Below are positions 8,919 to 14,754 of a stretch of 64,000 nucleotides of DNA, one piece after another. Origin of the DNA: Desulfoferula mesophila (GTDB lineage: Bacteria > Desulfobacterota > Desulfarculia > Desulfarculales > Desulfarculaceae); assembly GCF_037076455.1 (NCBI RefSeq), contig NZ_AP028679.1:4355501-4419500 (forward strand), given 5' to 3'. Below the pieces are notes generated by a model. That model ran no database searches, had not been told where the DNA came from, and saw only the letters and a program-made list of their open reading frames with translations. Numbering within the stretch: position 1 is the first letter of the stretch; every line of letters begins with the position of its first letter. Made by a program: the position numbers and the translations under genes.

Positions 8919-8947
8919 TTCCCGCCTGGCCGGGGCCGTGCTACAAT
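8919..8947 (+). promoter_or_regulatory. Putative promoter for the CoA-transferase gene
   Basis: TTCCCG (8919-8924), 17 bases, then TACAAT (8942-8947), 40 bases before the ATG at 8988. The -10 is good and the -35 is weak. Confidence 0.4.
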
Positions 8948-8987
8948 GCCCGCCAAAACCGCGCCCACTCAAGCCCGCGAGGAGCCC

Positions 8988-10289
8988 ATGTACACCGAGG
9001 AATATCGACGCAAGCTGGTCAGCCCCGAGGAGGCCGCCGAAGCGGTGCCCGAGGGCGGCGCCCTGATCCACGGCCTGACCATGGCCGAGCCCCCCGCGCT
9101 CTTGGGCGCCATCGCGGCGCGGGTGGCCGCCGGCGGGCTGAGCGAGCTTACCGTCTATTCCCTGCTGCCCACCAAGACCGCCTGCGAGAGCATCCTGGCC
9201 CCGGAGCTGTGCAACGCGGTGAAGGCCTACACCTGGTTCGTCAGCGCCTGCGACCGTGACCTGGTGGACGAAGGCGTGGAGGATTTCATCCCCTGCCACT
9301 TCCACCAGGTGCCCCGGCTCATCAGCGACGGCCCGCCCCTGGACGTGTGCGTCACCACGGTGTCGGCCATGGACACCCACGGCTTTTTCAGCCTGGGCAC
9401 GGCCAACGACTTCACCTCCACCGCCGCCCGCAAGGCCGGCAAGCTCATCGTGGAGGTGAACCGCAACATGCCCCGGGTCTTCGGCCAGAGCCTGGTGCAC
9501 ATCTCCGAGGTGGCCCTTATCGTGGAAAACCACGTGCCGGTCCGGCCCTTCATGGACGGCCCGGCCCTGCCGGAGGACTGCGTGATCGGCCAAAAGGTGG
9601 CCGAGCTGGTGCCCAACGGGGCCACCCTGCAACTAGGGGTGGGCAGCCTGCCCGGCGCGGTGGCCGACTACCTGATGGACCACAAGGACCTGGGGGTGCA
9701 CACCGAGGTGTTCGGCCCGGCCATGGCCAGGCTGATCCAGAAGGGGGTCATCAACGGGCACCGCAAGAGCCTGCACCCCTATCTGCACGTGTACACCGTG
9801 GCCCAGGGCGACGCCGACATGCTGGCCTTCATGCACAACAACCCCTCCATGGCCTCCTTCCCGGTGTCCTACGTCAACCACCCCCAGGTCATCGCCCAAA
9901 ACCGGCGCATGATCTCCATCAACAGCCTGATCCAGGTGGACCTCACCGGCCAGTGCAACGCCGAGTTTTTGGCCGGGCACCAGATCAGCGGCACCGGCGG
10001 GCAGCTGGACTTCGTGCGCGGGGCCTACGACTCGCCCGGCGGCAAGTCCATCCTGGCCTTCCGCTCCACGGCCCGCGGCGGCAAGATCAGCCGGGTGGTG
10101 CCCCGCCTGGAGCTGGGCGCGGCGGTGACCACCCCGCGCATGGACGCCCACTACCTGGTCACCGAGCACGGGGTGGCCAACCTCAAGGGCATGTCCACCA
10201 AGCAGCGGGCTCAGGCCATCATCGGCCTGGCCCACCCCGACCACCGCGAAGACCTGTCGCGCGAGGCCCGCAAGCTGCACCTGGCCTGA
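8988..10289 (+). CDS. Acetyl-CoA hydrolase/transferase family protein
   Basis: A 433-residue CoA-transferase of the acetyl-CoA hydrolase / 4-hydroxybutyrate CoA-transferase group. The likely catalytic Glu lies in GVHTEVFGPAM. The C-terminal domain shows GTGGQLDFVRGAYDSPGG and YLVTEHGVANLKG, both typical of the family. It would move CoA between short-chain acyl groups in the cytoplasm, useful in fermentation or fatty acid oxidation of an anaerobe. ATG 8988 follows CGAGGAG and is preferred over ATG 8946. Confidence 0.88.
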   Translation: MYTEEYRRKLVSPEEAAEAVPEGGALIHGLTMAEPPALLGAIAARVAAGGLSELTVYSLLPTKTACESILAPELCNAVKAYTWFVSACDRDLVDEGVEDFIPCHFHQVPRLISDGPPLDVCVTTVSAMDTHGFFSLGTANDFTSTAARKAGKLIVEVNRNMPRVFGQSLVHISEVALIVENHVPVRPFMDGPALPEDCVIGQKVAELVPNGATLQLGVGSLPGAVADYLMDHKDLGVHTEVFGPAMARLIQKGVINGHRKSLHPYLHVYTVAQGDADMLAFMHNNPSMASFPVSYVNHPQVIAQNRRMISINSLIQVDLTGQCNAEFLAGHQISGTGGQLDFVRGAYDSPGGKSILAFRSTARGGKISRVVPRLELGAAVTTPRMDAHYLVTEHGVANLKGMSTKQRAQAIIGLAHPDHREDLSREARKLHLA

Positions 10290-10397
10290 TCCCCGGCCCG
10301 CCCGGCGGATCGCGATCCTTTCCTTGCTCCGGCCATGGCCGGGCATCTCTTGCCGCGCCCGCTTGACTCTCCCGCCGAATCCCGTTCAGAATATATA

Positions 10398-10425
10398 TTG
10401 ACGATCGCATCGCCTGTATTTAATC
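10398..10425 (+). promoter_or_regulatory. Putative promoter of the selenopeptide locus
   Basis: TTGACG (10398-10403), 16 bases, TTAATC (10420-10425) lies in an A+T-rich patch 60 bases before the first precursor gene. The match is modest. Bases 10290-10397 hold no gene that I can see. Confidence 0.3.
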
Positions 10426-10485
10426 GGCGCGGCCGATAACTAGTTGGCGCGTTTGACCGCCGACCCATATCTCCGGAGGTCGAAG

Positions 10486-10674
10486 GTGGACAAGCAAACC
10501 CTGAAGAAATTCTTGGCCGGGCTGTGCATCGCCGCCCTGGCGGGAGGCGCTGGCCTGGCCGGCTGTTCCAGCTGAAGCGGCAACGGCGGCACCGGTGGTG
10601 CCGACCAAAAGAAGGAACAGCCTCAAGGCGGGGGCGAGGCCCAAAAGGCCCCGGCCAAACCCGCCCAGGACTGA
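10486..10674 (+). CDS. sbtA1: SbtA-type selenocysteine RiPP precursor peptide, copy 1
   Basis: A 62-residue peptide read through one in-frame TGA (10573-10575, residue 30). GGAGG (10474-10478) precedes GTG 10486. The leader begins MDKQTLKKFLAGLCIAAL and ends LAGCSS-Sec-SG, followed by a Gly/Lys/Gln-rich tail to TGA 10672-10674. Evidence for recoding is strong: the frame is open on both sides of the TGA, a SECIS-like hairpin follows at the right distance, a second gene with the same leader has TGA at the same place before SG, and a radical SAM/SPASM maturase lies downstream. This matches predicted 'selenobiotic' (SbtA, thio/seleno-oxazole) precursors. The leader end also looks like a lipobox (LAGC). 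The chemical product is unknown. Confidence 0.88.
10588..10602 (+). promoter_or_regulatory. SECIS-like hairpin for sbtA1
   Basis: Perfect stem GGCACC/GGTGCC with loop GGT starts 12 bases after the TGA; the loop begins 18 bases after it. Bacterial SECIS elements need a short stem with G near the start of the loop at about 16-37 bases from the UGA, which this meets. Confidence 0.7.
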
Positions 10675-10734
10675 GTGAGGCGGCCCCCTCCCAGGACTTG
10701 GGCGGGGGCTGGGCCTGAAGCACGGTTTTAAACG

Positions 10735-10752
10735 CCGCTCCGTTCGGAGCGG
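10735..10752 (+). other. Hairpin between the two precursor genes
   Basis: CCGCTCCG/CGGAGCGG forms an 8-base inverted repeat followed by TTTG, 20 bases before the second precursor start. It has too few T residues for a strong terminator, so it may be an RNA-processing or stability element. A second weaker GC hairpin lies at about 10683-10709. Confidence 0.4.
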
Positions 10753-10775
10753 TTTGAAGCAAAGGGAGGCATGCC

Positions 10776-11060
10776 TTGGACAACCAAAAGCTCAAGAAAA
10801 TCCTGGCCGGGCTGTGCGTTACCGGCCTGGTGGCGGGCACCGGCCTGGTGGCCGGGGCCGCCAGCGGATGAAGCGGCAAGAGCGGCGCCGTGAGCGCCGA
10901 CCAGGCCAAACAGCAGGCGGAGCAAACCGCCGACCAAACCAAGCAACAGGCGGAACAGGCCGCCAAGGACGCGGCCCAGCAGCAGACGGACAAGATGAAG
11001 GGCGACGCGGCCAAGCAGGCCCAGGACCAGATGAAGCAGGCGCCCGGCGGCGCCAAGTAG
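10776..11060 (+). CDS. sbtA2: SbtA-type selenocysteine RiPP precursor peptide, copy 2, long tail
   Basis: A 94-residue peptide with one in-frame TGA (10869-10871, residue 32). GGGAGG (10764-10769) is six bases before TTG 10776; a nearby ATG at 10771 is out of frame. The leader MDNQKLKKILAGLCVTGLVA is clearly homologous to copy 1, and the core reads AASG-Sec-SG. After the core comes a roughly 58-residue charged, Ala/Gln/Lys-rich tail with repeats such as KQQAEQTADQ and KQQAEQAAKD that should form a long helix. The tail is unlike copy 1, so the two peptides may have different fates. Normal translation would stop at TGA after 31 residues. Confidence 0.88.
10883..10899 (+). promoter_or_regulatory. 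SECIS-like hairpin for sbtA2
   Basis: Stem CGGCGC/GCGCCG with a five-base loop CGTGA; the loop starts 17 bases after the TGA and has G as its second base. The sequence differs from the copy 1 hairpin while position and form are kept, which argues for selection. Confidence 0.68.
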
Positions 11061-11077
11061 AACCTTTCCTGCCCCCG

Positions 11078-11117
11078 CGGCGCGCCGGCGGCCCTGGCCA
11101 TCGGCGCGCCGTTTTTT
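11078..11117 (+). terminator. Intrinsic terminator between precursors and maturase
   Basis: CGGCGCGCCG (11078-11087) pairs with CGGCGCGCCG (11102-11111) and is followed by TTTTTT. It would let the precursors be made in excess over the maturase, with sbtM expressed by read-through or from its own promoter. Confidence 0.7.
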
Positions 11118-11125
11118 GAGTTACA

Positions 11126-12577
11126 ATGCCCAGCATGTCACCCAGCGAGCCATACCAAAGCGACCTGGAGCGCCTGCGCCGCGCCCGCGCGCGGGCCGCG
11201 GCGGCCGAGCCGCCCCGGCCCGGCCAGAGCCTCGGCCTGAACCCCACCCTGGTGGTGGAAGAGGTGGCCTGGCGCGGCCTGCCGGAGCGCCTGGCGGCGC
11301 AGGACGCGCCCGAGCCCCAGGCGGCCTCGCAACCGGTCTACGTGGGGGCCTGGCGCGCGCCGGGGGGCGAGGTACGCCTGGCCGAAATGGAACAGCCCCG
11401 GCTGCTGGCCCTCAAGGTGGCGGCCGAGGGCCTGGACCCCTTGGAAACCGCCCGCCAGGCCGGGTCGCCGCCCACGGTGGTGCTGGACGCCCTGGATTTG
11501 GCGGCCAAGGAGGGCCTGCTGCTGCGGCCGCCCTCGCTGCTGGCCCGCGCCGCCCCCCAGGCCGGGCCGGCAGTCTCGGACGAGTTTTTGCGCGCCGACT
11601 GGTTCACCCTGCAATGGCACATCACCCAGGCCTGCGACCTCAACTGCCGCCACTGCTACGACCGCTCGGACCGACCGCCGGTGGACCTGGCCCGGGGCCT
11701 CCAGGTGCTGGACCAGTTGGCCGCCTTTTGCGCCGCGCGGCGGGTGCGGGGCCAGGTGTCGTTCTCCGGGGGCAACCCCCTGCTGCACCCCGACTTTTTG
11801 ACCCTCTATGGGGCGGCGGTGGAGCGCGGCCTGGGGGTGGCCATCCTGGGCAACCCCTGCGGCGAGGCCAAGCTGGCGGAAATCCTGGACATCGCACCGC
11901 CAGCCTTTTACCAGGTGAGCCTTGAGGGCCTGGAGCCGCACAACGACTACATCCGGGGCCGGGGCCACTTCCTGCGCACCAGCGCCTTCCTGGATCTGCT
12001 CAGGGAGGCGGGCGTACGCTCCATGGTCATGCTCACCCTGAGCCGGGACAACCTGGACCAGGTGATTCCCCTGGCCCGCCTGCTTCGGGGCAAGGTGGAC
12101 CAGTTCAACTTCAACCGCCTGGCCCCAGTGGGCTCCGGGGCGGCCCTGGCCATGGCCGACCCGGATGACTTCCGCCGCTTTTTGGCCGACTACGCCGCCG
12201 AGGCGGCCGAGAACCCCGTATTGGGCCTCAAGGACAACCTGCTCAACCTTCATTACGAACAAGAGGGCCTGCCTCTTTTCGGCGGCTGCACCGGCTTCGG
12301 CTGCGGCGCGGCCTTCAACTTCCTGGCCCTGCTGCCCGACGGCCAGGTGCACGCCTGCCGCAAACTGCCCTCCCCGGTGGGCGATCTCTATCAGCAGGGC
12401 CTGGGCGAGATCTACGACGGCGAGGCGGCCCGCCGCTATCGGCGGGCCCCCGAGGCCTGCGCCCCCTGCCGCCTGCGGGCGGTGTGCGGTGGCTGCCTGG
12501 CCGTGGCCCACGGCGCGGGCCGGGACGTTTCTACCCAGCGCGACCCCTTTTGCTGGCTAAGCGGCCCCCTGGCCTGA
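11126..12577 (+). CDS. sbtM: Radical SAM/SPASM maturase of the selenopeptide locus (SbtM-type)
   Basis: A 483-residue enzyme. The radical SAM motif CDLNCRHC (CxxxCxxC) is near residue 171, after an N-terminal region of about 160 residues with a winged-helix-like part that could bind the leader peptide. The C-terminal SPASM-type domain is Cys-rich (GCTGFGCG, ACRKLPSP, CAPCRLRAVCGGC, PFCW) and should hold auxiliary 4Fe-4S clusters. It would modify the Cys/Ser/Sec core of the two upstream precursors. The start may be ATG 11126 or 11135; no good ribosome site is visible, and TACAAT at 11122-11127 could be a -10 box giving a leaderless message from 11135. Family assignment rests on motifs plus context. 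Confidence 0.88.
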   Translation: MPSMSPSEPYQSDLERLRRARARAAAAEPPRPGQSLGLNPTLVVEEVAWRGLPERLAAQDAPEPQAASQPVYVGAWRAPGGEVRLAEMEQPRLLALKVAAEGLDPLETARQAGSPPTVVLDALDLAAKEGLLLRPPSLLARAAPQAGPAVSDEFLRADWFTLQWHITQACDLNCRHCYDRSDRPPVDLARGLQVLDQLAAFCAARRVRGQVSFSGGNPLLHPDFLTLYGAAVERGLGVAILGNPCGEAKLAEILDIAPPAFYQVSLEGLEPHNDYIRGRGHFLRTSAFLDLLREAGVRSMVMLTLSRDNLDQVIPLARLLRGKVDQFNFNRLAPVGSGAALAMADPDDFRRFLADYAAEAAENPVLGLKDNLLNLHYEQEGLPLFGGCTGFGCGAAFNFLALLPDGQVHACRKLPSPVGDLYQQGLGEIYDGEAARRYRRAPEACAPCRLRAVCGGCLAVAHGAGRDVSTQRDPFCWLSGPLA

Positions 12578-12701: not shown

Positions 12702-12783
12702 TTTAAAGTAGGATAATACCGGTATGAAACCGGCTGTGGAGGCCTTCGAGCTTCCGCCCCACCTCCTAGAAAAAGGACGTGTT

Positions 12784-14754
12784 ATGAGCAAAAGCGACAA
12801 GCTGCAAGACCTGAACAGCCTGAACCCGGCCGACGTCACCATCTGTGAAACCACCCAAAAGATGTTGGCCAAGGCTCATCGCGACGGCGTGGAAACCGCC
12901 TTTGACCGGGCGGCCAACATGAAGGCCTGCCCCATCGGGGAAAAGAGCGCCTGCTGTAAGCACTGCGCCATGGGCCCCTGCCGTCTCAACGCCAAGGACC
13001 CCTACTCCAAGGTCGGGGTATGCGGAGCCACCATCGACACCATCCAGTCGCGCAACTTTGCCCGCATGGTGGCCTCGGGCACCGCCTCCCACACCGACCA
13101 TGGCATGGAGATGCTCAACCTGTTCAAGGGCGTGGTGAGCGGACACATCAAGGACTACGAGATCAGCGACACCGAGAAGCTCATCCAGGTGGCCGGCGAG
13201 TTGGGCATCGCCACCGAGGATCGCGAGGTGTTGGACATCGCCCGCGACCTGTGCGCCGAGATGGAAAAGACCTACACCCAGATCGAGGGCGAGCTGCCCT
13301 TCATCAAGCGCGCCCCCAAGAAGACCCAGGAGATGTGGCGCGAAGCCGGGGTGGTGCCCCGGGGCGCCATGCGCGAGATCATGGAGATCACCACCCGCAC
13401 CCACATGGGCATGGACCAGGACCACACCAACCTCATCAAGCAGATCAACCGCACCGCCTTGGCCGACGGCTGGGGCGGCTCCATGGTGGCCACCGAAATC
13501 GGCGACATGCTCTTCGGCACCCCCTACCCCGTGGTGGGCGAGGTGAACATGGGCGTGCTCAAGGAGGACGAGGTCAACATCATCATCCACGGCCACGAGC
13601 CCAACCTGTTCGACTCCATGCTGGCCTCGGTGAACGACCCCGAGCTGATCGCCAAGGCCCAGGCCTCGGGGGCCAAGGGCATCAACCTGGTGGGCATGTG
13701 CTGCTCCGGCTTGGAGATGCTCTCGCGCCGGGGCGTGCCCCACGCGGGCAACTTCATGAGCACCGAGGCCATCCTGGTAACCGGCGCGGTGGACGCCATG
13801 GCCGTGGACGTGCAGTGCATCAAGCAGGGCCTGGCCAAGGTGGCCGACTGCTACGGCACCAAGCTGTTCACCACCAACCCCAGGGCCCACATCGAGGGCG
13901 TGCCCCACATCGAGTTCGAGGAGGACTACCCCCGCGAGTGCACCGACACGGTGGTGGAGATGGCCATCAAGCGCTATGCGGGCCGCACCGCCCCCATCGA
14001 CATCCCCAAGCGCAAGGACAAGGGCGTCTTCGGCTTCAGCCATGAGTACATCAACTACATGCTGGGCGGCACCTTCCGGGGCAGCTACACCCCGCTCAAC
14101 GACAACATCATCAACGGGCGCATCCGCGGCGTGGCCGGGGTGGTGGGCTGCACCAACCCCAGGGTCAAGCAGGACTACGTGCACGTGGAGCTGGTCAAGG
14201 AGCTGATCAAGAACGACATCCTGGTGGTGCAGACCGGCTGCTCCCAGATATCGCTGGCCAAGGCGGGGCTCTTGACCCCCGAGGCGGCCCACCTGGCCGG
14301 GCCGGGCCTGGCCGAGGTCTGCGAGACCGTGGGCATGCCCCCGGTGCTGGGCCTGGGCGCCTGCGTGGACAACAGCCGCATCCTCACCGCGGTGTGCAAC
14401 ATGGTGGCCGCCGGCGGCCTGGGCGATTCCATCGCCGACCTGCCCGTGGCCGGCGCCGCGCCGGAGTGGATGAGCGAGAAGGCCATCGCCATCGGCCAGT
14501 ACTTCGTGGCCTCAGGCGTGTACACCATCTTCGGAGTCACCTTCCCCATCGTGGAGCAGACCAAGTTCTACAAGCTGATGTTCGAGGACCTGGAGAAGCA
14601 GGGCATGGGCAAGTGGGACTTCGCGGTGGACCCCCACGACATGGCCGCCAAGATGATCGCCCACATCGAGAAGAAGCGCGCCGCCCTGGGCCTGGACAAG
14701 GACAAGGAGCGGGTGCTGGTGGGCATGGACGACCGCCGGGCCATCGAGGCCTAA
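12784..14754 (+). CDS. cooS: Anaerobic carbon monoxide dehydrogenase, catalytic subunit
   Basis: A 656-residue monofunctional Ni-Fe CO dehydrogenase that interconverts CO and CO2. The B- and D-cluster cysteines lie in ACPIGEKSACCKHCAMGPCR and VGVCGATID. C-cluster ligands are visible in IIIHGHEP (His), GMCCSGLEM, VVGCTNPRVK, VQTGCSQISLA and GLGACVDNSR. ATG 12784 is chosen over 12724 because AAAGGA lies six bases before it. Neither cooF nor the nickel-insertion ATPase cooC is adjacent, so the electron partner must be elsewhere; ferredoxins at 18.5 and 19.5 kb are candidates. A strong terminator follows. Confidence 0.96.
   Translation: MSKSDKLQDLNSLNPADVTICETTQKMLAKAHRDGVETAFDRAANMKACPIGEKSACCKHCAMGPCRLNAKDPYSKVGVCGATIDTIQSRNFARMVASGTASHTDHGMEMLNLFKGVVSGHIKDYEISDTEKLIQVAGELGIATEDREVLDIARDLCAEMEKTYTQIEGELPFIKRAPKKTQEMWREAGVVPRGAMREIMEITTRTHMGMDQDHTNLIKQINRTALADGWGGSMVATEIGDMLFGTPYPVVGEVNMGVLKEDEVNIIIHGHEPNLFDSMLASVNDPELIAKAQASGAKGINLVGMCCSGLEMLSRRGVPHAGNFMSTEAILVTGAVDAMAVDVQCIKQGLAKVADCYGTKLFTTNPRAHIEGVPHIEFEEDYPRECTDTVVEMAIKRYAGRTAPIDIPKRKDKGVFGFSHEYINYMLGGTFRGSYTPLNDNIINGRIRGVAGVVGCTNPRVKQDYVHVELVKELIKNDILVVQTGCSQISLAKAGLLTPEAAHLAGPGLAEVCETVGMPPVLGLGACVDNSRILTAVCNMVAAGGLGDSIADLPVAGAAPEWMSEKAIAIGQYFVASGVYTIFGVTFPIVEQTKFYKLMFEDLEKQGMGKWDFAVDPHDMAAKMIAHIEKKRAALGLDKDKERVLVGMDDRRAIEA

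Follow-up and report, generated by a model that had tools for sequence, protein, structure and literature searches.

The window analyzed here, a 64,000-nucleotide stretch of the Desulfoferula mesophila genome (contig NZ_AP028679.1, forward-strand positions 4,355,501 to 4,419,500), carries a small gene, sbtA1, whose reading frame runs through a TGA at 10573 that is almost certainly decoded as selenocysteine (Sec) by SelB and tRNA-Sec at an RNA hairpin. The gene encodes a precursor of a ribosomally synthesized and post-translationally modified peptide (RiPP), and we give an even chance to the reading that its product is a lipid-anchored envelope peptide bearing a selenooxazole, made by the adjacent maturase SbtM, that binds soft metals such as copper. 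The sbtA-sbtM gene pair belongs to a known family. What is new here is the reading that SbtA peptides are exported and in part anchored by a lipid, together with a link between SbtM and PME1, the partner protein of the enzymes that make thiooxazoles on bufferins; in the literature searched, which covered few subscription papers, neither a role for SbtA peptides nor the SbtM-PME1 link or a description of SbtA as a lipoprotein was found. Beyond an earlier note on this DNA, made from its letters alone, the analysis added a second precursor, the interpretation of the leader as an export signal and this link to bufferin partner proteins.

The sbtA1 frame opens with GTG, ends at a TGA at 10672 and has the TGA at 10573 as its sole internal stop; the 62-codon frame and ribosome site described in the earlier note were thus borne out, the latter as a GGAGG that resembles one. 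Residues 1-26 scored 38.9 bits (curated cut-off 30.5) against the NCBIfam model TIGR04081, named 'SbtA family thio(seleno)oxazole RiPP natural product precursor', and sbtM scored 621.9 bits (cut-off 350) against TIGR04082, which places the genes in the SbtA/SbtM family, as had been proposed. In the whole genome only sbtA1 and a second precursor, sbtA2, exceeded the TIGR04081 cut-off. Protein-like sequence had been claimed on both sides of the TGA, and this also held, as the leader matches the profile and the downstream part recurs in sbtA2: the DNA after the two in-frame TGA codons (10573-10607 and 10869-10903) is 80% identical, so that the sequence past the TGA in sbtA1 is not random. The claim that ordinary gene calling would miss the gene stood in part; such calling can miss sbtA1, but a curated NCBI model, TIGR04081, exists for it. 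The two precursors and their elements are as follows.

10475..10479, + strand: GGAGG, resembling a ribosome-binding site, 6 nt 5' of the GTG start of sbtA1 (from the sequence)
10486..10674, + strand: sbtA1, Sec-containing RiPP precursor of 62 residues, with residues 1-26 as leader and putative export signal and a predicted mature part from Cys27
10573..10575, + strand: in-frame TGA, predicted Sec codon 30 of sbtA1 (frame reading, SECIS model)
10587..10603, + strand: predicted SECIS (selenocysteine insertion sequence) hairpin of sbtA1, 7-bp stem 10587-10593 / 10597-10603, loop GGU (folding, comparative)
10776..11060, + strand: sbtA2, second Sec-containing precursor of 94 residues, TTG start, AxA-type leader, TIGR04081 44.6 bits (cut-off 30.5)
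10869..10871, + strand: in-frame TGA, predicted Sec codon 32 of sbtA2 (frame reading, SECIS model)
10883..10899, + strand: predicted SECIS hairpin of sbtA2, stem 10883-10888 / 10894-10899, loop CGUGA (folding, comparative)

The comparisons drew on 64 SbtM loci (designated by L numbers), mostly from sulfate-reducing or other Deltaproteobacteria and some from Nitrospirae. An iterated leader profile found 59 precursors in 58 of these loci, and the two of the window brought the set to 61. No precursor was obtained from L041, L043, L054, L064, L067 and L075; in four of these six the sequence starts at most 831 bases from the sbtM match. Sec codons were told from the final TGA by a context rule that overshot by one TGA in L051 and L065 at least, so that the Sec counts are approximate: none was predicted in 3 precursors, one in 6 (including both of the window), two in 23, three in 20 and four to six in 9. 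Unlike most of the family, the window has a tandem pair of precursors that each contain a single Sec; at least two Sec are predicted in 52 of the 61 under this rule.

The evidence for the predicted sbtA1 hairpin is comparative; folded alone, the hairpin was mildly better than shuffled sequences (z -1.84). Rfam gave no SECIS match in 10200-11200, with one unrelated weak match there, and only two tRNAs at gathering scores in the whole window. A family-specific SECIS covariance model was therefore built from 72 sites of relatives, with the window excluded from training. Up to an E-value of 1 the model matched the window at two places only, 10573-10617 (34.0 bits, E 1.5e-5) and 10866-10913 (35.5 bits, E 7.1e-6). 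In the whole genome it returned these two sites and one match of 21.8 bits (E 0.45), which lies antisense to an uninterrupted open reading frame (ORF), has 11 TGA codons in its own frame and is probably due to chance. Across 61 loci (598 kb, training sites included) there were 87 matches, all within sbtA genes or their 3' ends; 86 were placed by script and the one at 4347 of L089 by its position in the gene.

Hairpins were then counted if they had five or more pairs and G[GU] at the apex. In the SbtA family such a hairpin followed 89 of 96 internal Sec codons (codon shuffles: mean 11.7, maximum 18 in 20 rounds) as against 8 of 34 core Cys codons, some of these eight adjoining a Sec site and using its hairpin. 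It also followed 51 of the 57 Sec codons with fewer than ten residues left (base shuffles: mean 8.45, maximum 16), mostly overlapping the stop codon or lying beyond it, which indicates that the hairpin is not kept for the sake of the peptide alone. In the sbtA genes of L068, L069, L077, L083 and L084, the last codon before TAA or TAG may itself be a Sec codon whose hairpin falls within the 3' untranslated region. Of the 96 Sec sites, 76 are followed after 5-9 residues by the peptide motif [GSA][ATGS][GV][GS][AST], which starts at +5 or +6 in 70 of them, as against 3 of 30 Cys sites; we take this motif to be the imprint of the RNA hairpin on the protein. Together with this contrast between Cys and Sec codons, the SECIS model offers a clean route to finding and counting such hidden genes.

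Covariation was assessed on the same 72 sites, which are the 74 distinct motif-bearing sites of relatives minus two that share the hairpin of the next site (removed by hand); the 20 of 96 internal Sec sites lacking the peptide motif were excluded. The six stem pairs were formed in 96.3% of cells (82.6 in shuffles), and 66 cells were altered on both sides as against 16.6 in shuffles, a value reached in none of 500 shuffles. With the partner slid, pairing was 24 to 56%. Variation on both sides is seen in four of the six stem pairs. Double changes occurred in 4 pairs (shuffled 3.1) and pair types numbered 10 (shuffled 8.4), neither of which goes beyond the shuffles; the cell number and the score do. 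As the alignment was anchored on the peptide motif, its near-invariant pairs say little.

The machinery for Sec insertion, whose absence the earlier note had named as telling against the gene, is present in the single-contig genome (4.48 Mb): selA (612 bits), selB (393 bits), selD (377 bits) and a tRNA that ARAGORN calls tRNA-SeC with anticodon tca. The selD gene (L013, C1:3726958-3727884) carries an in-frame TGA close to the N-terminus of its product, in the context ARAAG-U-AAKIG, so that selenophosphate synthetase is itself a predicted selenoprotein and this genome very likely decodes TGA as Sec at other places as well. The co-occurrence of SbtM and selB was uninformative: 24 of 25 SbtM genomes have selB, but so do 221 of all 247 genomes, and the lone SbtM genome lacking a selB match (G113) is 76% complete.

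That the TGA at 10573 is a true stop, leaving a gene that yields no more than a leader of 29 residues or has decayed, has in our view next to no chance of being right. In its favor, table 11 treats TGA as a stop, and the sbtA1 frame past it is short and of low complexity. Set against this are the match of a model trained outside the window exactly at the TGA, the covariation, the Sec machinery, a twin gene with an equal TGA and downstream sequence, and the two or more predicted Sec in most precursors of the family. The earlier proposal of a Sec codon with a SECIS-like hairpin is hence supported by both machinery and model, and conservation past the TGA, the other point on which that proposal hung, was found in the twin gene and in relatives.

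The leader of sbtA1 ends in a lipoprotein-like motif.

10555..10566, + strand: lipobox-like Leu-Ala-Gly-Cys27 where the sbtA1 leader ends (pattern match)

An 11-residue stretch with mean hydropathy above 1.6 was present in all 61 leaders. In 34 of them the first Cys past this stretch falls at index 25, 26 or 28 (0-based), and 18 have a strict lipobox, SbtA1 among them with LAGC27 three residues before Sec30; the leader of L029 has an earlier Cys (index 22) that was not counted as a lipobox. By a loose pattern, 16 leaders have AxA, including that of SbtA2, in which no lipobox pattern was found, and 10 have neither the lipobox Cys nor AxA. From these patterns we infer that the SbtA leader is an export signal. 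In the proposed mechanism it would, quite probably, act as such, with the lipobox Cys27 of SbtA1 lipidated and the leader removed, and SbtA2 would become a non-lipidated, soluble partner. In L089 and L090, loci of the same genus, the precursor adjoining sbtM has a lipobox-like Cys and another Cys but no TGA, and the precursor one place before it bears two or three Sec; in the window, by contrast, the lipobox precursor itself has the Sec. L090 is apparently the same contig sequence as L025.

A lipid anchor also bears on an alternative suggested by the names given to the family, 'selenobiotic' and 'selenobacteriocin', namely that the peptide is matured, cut and released onto other cells as a secreted selenium bacteriocin or signal. 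A 2026 selenoproteome review (PMC13188914) lists the SbtA family, as TIGR04081, under 'Selenobacteriocin' in its accessible text, and SbtA cores are variable and repeated, as in many bacteriocins. A Cys at the lipobox place in 34 of 61 leaders would, however, tether the peptide to its producer. The neighbours of sbtM in 65 sources (flanks up to 5 kb, ORFs of at least 70 aa) also speak against release, as no family but sbtM recurred on the same strand in more than four sources, although immunity genes of fewer than 70 aa could be missed by this survey. We therefore regard the bacteriocin as improbable. With no conserved transporter, protease or immunity gene seen, a general export route would do for the anchored peptide that we favor. 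Clustering of the neighbourhoods gave no functional hint, and a cluster of 11 loci directly upstream of sbtM on the opposite strand was taken as antisense to sbtA and set aside.

The enzyme that would make the ring lies directly downstream of the precursors.

11126..12577, + strand: sbtM, radical S-adenosylmethionine (SAM)/SPASM maturase, start at 11126 or 11135 (TIGR04082 621.9 bits)
11225..11563, + strand: N-terminal recognition domain of SbtM, residues 34-146, resembling a RiPP recognition element and homologous to the C-terminal half of PME1 (profile and structure comparison)
11633..11656, + strand: CxxxCxxC of the radical SAM cluster, C170, C174 and C177 (invariant in 29 of 29)
12287..12553, + strand: SPASM region with invariant Cys 388, 393, 411, 445, 448, 454, 457 and 476 (alignment)

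All 11 cluster Cys of SbtM are invariant in 29 of 29 members, and its nearest folds include SkfB, SuiB and CteB. A weak match of the defence library to viperin covers part of the SbtM radical SAM core only and was rejected. The earlier note had called the product of such systems unknown, a statement that is outdated: as far as its accessible text goes, the 2024 review PMC11002830, crediting Lewis et al. 2021, describes in vitro the making of a thiooxazole by an SbtM on a Cys substrate, with both Cys and Sec substrates losing four hydrogens. Parts of PMC12668002 group what SbtM makes with the 5-thiooxazoles, which absorb near 305 nm, and ultraviolet or nuclear magnetic resonance data of that product are compared with bufferins in portions of PMC12668002 and PMC12538549. 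On the strength of the published reaction it is likely that SbtM would grip the leader through its N-terminal domain and turn Ser29-Sec30 into a 5-selenooxazole, with the loss of four hydrogens.

The N-terminal domain supplied the link to PME1. A Foldseek comparison with 350,542 PDB chains gave 3dee as its best match, which the available text of PMC12452194 and PMC12668002 identifies as a PME1. In hhalign the domain matched PME1 at a probability of 95.9, on the C-terminal half of PME1 and with the DUF2063 half outside the matching region, as compared with 0.4 for PqqD (13 of 14 loci, with the 446-aa frame of L112 excluded), 0.1 for the reversed profile and no more than 0.3 for any of 20 column shuffles. 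The PME1 set consisted of seven DUF2063 proteins, named PME1 as each adjoins an MNIO, and the homology with SbtM rests mainly on two of the seven. The PME1 closest to the SbtM domain is that of L115, from the same phylum; its MNIO and PME1 cluster (L115:1066-3269) also has a signal-like possible precursor with GQCGSGNCGSGNCGSDK. A search with PF22106 gave no match in 247 genomes and matched no control either, and is thus uninformative; when the SbtM domains were taken by themselves, one of 29 members, that of the window, gave a sub-threshold match of 15.4 bits (cut-off 27).

In selenoproteins, Sec is usually catalytic. This favors a second alternative, in which the peptide does not bind metal but either stores selenium or uses a redox-active Sec to neutralize peroxide, electrophiles or radicals within the envelope; up to six Sec per precursor in relatives, and the ability of Cys to substitute, point the same way. 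Cys-containing SbtA homologues are found as the second precursors of L089 and L090 and also in L056, L086 and L087. Single repeat units at L049:4408 and L052:4641 have GGA (Gly) in the Sec slot and a hairpin that the SECIS model still recognizes, whereas the unit at L074:4566 has TGT in that slot and a decaying hairpin; these units are probably relics of recent Sec loss, and Gly or Cys in the slot implies that single Sec sites are exchangeable and losable. The persistence of the Gly units in L049 and L052 indicates that single sites are dispensable, which weighs against a redox role yet fits storage as well as binding. Furthermore, neither SbtA1 nor SbtA2 has a resolving Cys or a thioredoxin-like fold with Sec, and an SbtM that works as published would leave the selenium on an aromatic ring. 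Redox activity or storage is in our judgment unlikely, though less so than release as a bacteriocin.

The comparison with bufferins leads back to the metal-binding peptide. According to parts of PMC12452194, bufferins are MNIO-modified, have Sec signal peptides (the secretion signal) and bind periplasmic copper through Cys-derived thiooxazoles, and about 16% of Buf2 proteins have predicted lipoprotein signals; the available text of PMC12668002 gives 5-thiooxazole as the bufferin product. Bufferins and captophorins (MNIO with PME1) thus resemble SbtA/SbtM in precursors with export signals, which for SbtA are predicted, some of them of lipoprotein type, in the 5-thiooxazole, and in a recognition domain homologous to that of SbtM, but SbtM is a radical SAM/SPASM enzyme and not an MNIO, and selenium takes the place of sulfur. 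As no MNIO (PF05114) was found in the whole window genome at E 1e-20, SbtA was not classed as a bufferin. Among the 247 genomes, MNIO (6 genomes) and SbtM (25 genomes) never co-occur, with only 0.6 genomes expected. With other SbtA/SbtM RiPPs (TIGR04081/TIGR04082) the window shares the leader family, the Sec core with its SECIS and the adjacent SbtM, and differs from them in that SbtA1 pairs a lipobox with a Sec three residues on. DAG-RiPPs, hybrids of RiPP and lipoprotein, in the accessible text of PMC12636315 likewise have a RiPP core behind a lipobox signal peptide, and RiPP-lipoproteins from the bufferin field have been produced and found to be triacylated; the DAG-RiPPs were, however, mined for MNIO products, with some autoinducing peptides noted, and the available main text mentions neither radical SAM enzymes nor selenium.

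The putative export signal, the ring chemistry and the recognition domain led us to propose SbtA as an oxygen-independent selenium counterpart of the bufferins, and these features, held in common, give it a concrete, testable role. Metal binding by the SbtA product is inference alone, and that the mature peptide would buffer soft metals in the envelope as such a counterpart has slightly less than an even chance. More tentatively still, SbtA/SbtM may be the selenium bufferin of anaerobes, in which an ancestral PME1-type domain, recognizing precursors that bear signal peptides, was joined to two unrelated catalysts that both make 5-chalcogeno-oxazoles, with SbtA1 as the lipid-anchored form. The oxygen-using MNIO would then serve in aerobes and the radical SAM enzyme in sulfate-reducing and related anaerobes, and SbtA1, as a diacylglycerol peptide whose selenooxazole lies three residues from its lipid, would represent a type of molecule that the literature searched does not describe. 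If true, this would provide an oxygen-free way to selenium-bearing, bufferin-like metal ligands and a selenium lipopeptide, and a single RiPP recognition domain would serve two catalysts that are unrelated yet arrive at one ring.

Some further observations concern the surroundings of these genes. In plasmids, no record covered 80% of SbtM, and the only matches were below 60% identity. The name SbtA in PMC9469722 refers to a bicarbonate transporter and is unrelated. Between sbtA2 and sbtM lies the following element.

11077..11117, + strand: terminator- or attenuator-like hairpin running into TTTTTT (11112-11117) in the sbtA2-sbtM gap (-32.1 kcal/mol, z -3.32)

This strong hairpin has 15 pairs and was not listed by a pattern-based scan; it could stop most transcripts past the precursors and so keep SbtM scarce. 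Upstream, a sigma-70-like promoter match was seen at 10363-10392 (TTGACT, 18, CAGAAT, 9/12), about 94 nt 5' of sbtA1, and promoter-like sites in the scanned 2.5-kb region numbered 4 as compared with 0.2 in shuffles. The upstream gene at 8946-10289 is CoA-transferase-like (TIGR03948, 318.1 bits, below the cut-off of 674.8), with its cluster in 3 of 65 sources including L025. Directly downstream of sbtM, 12724-14754 encodes an anaerobic carbon-monoxide dehydrogenase catalytic subunit (TIGR01702, 590.2 bits), whose cluster was also found in 3 of the 65 sources.
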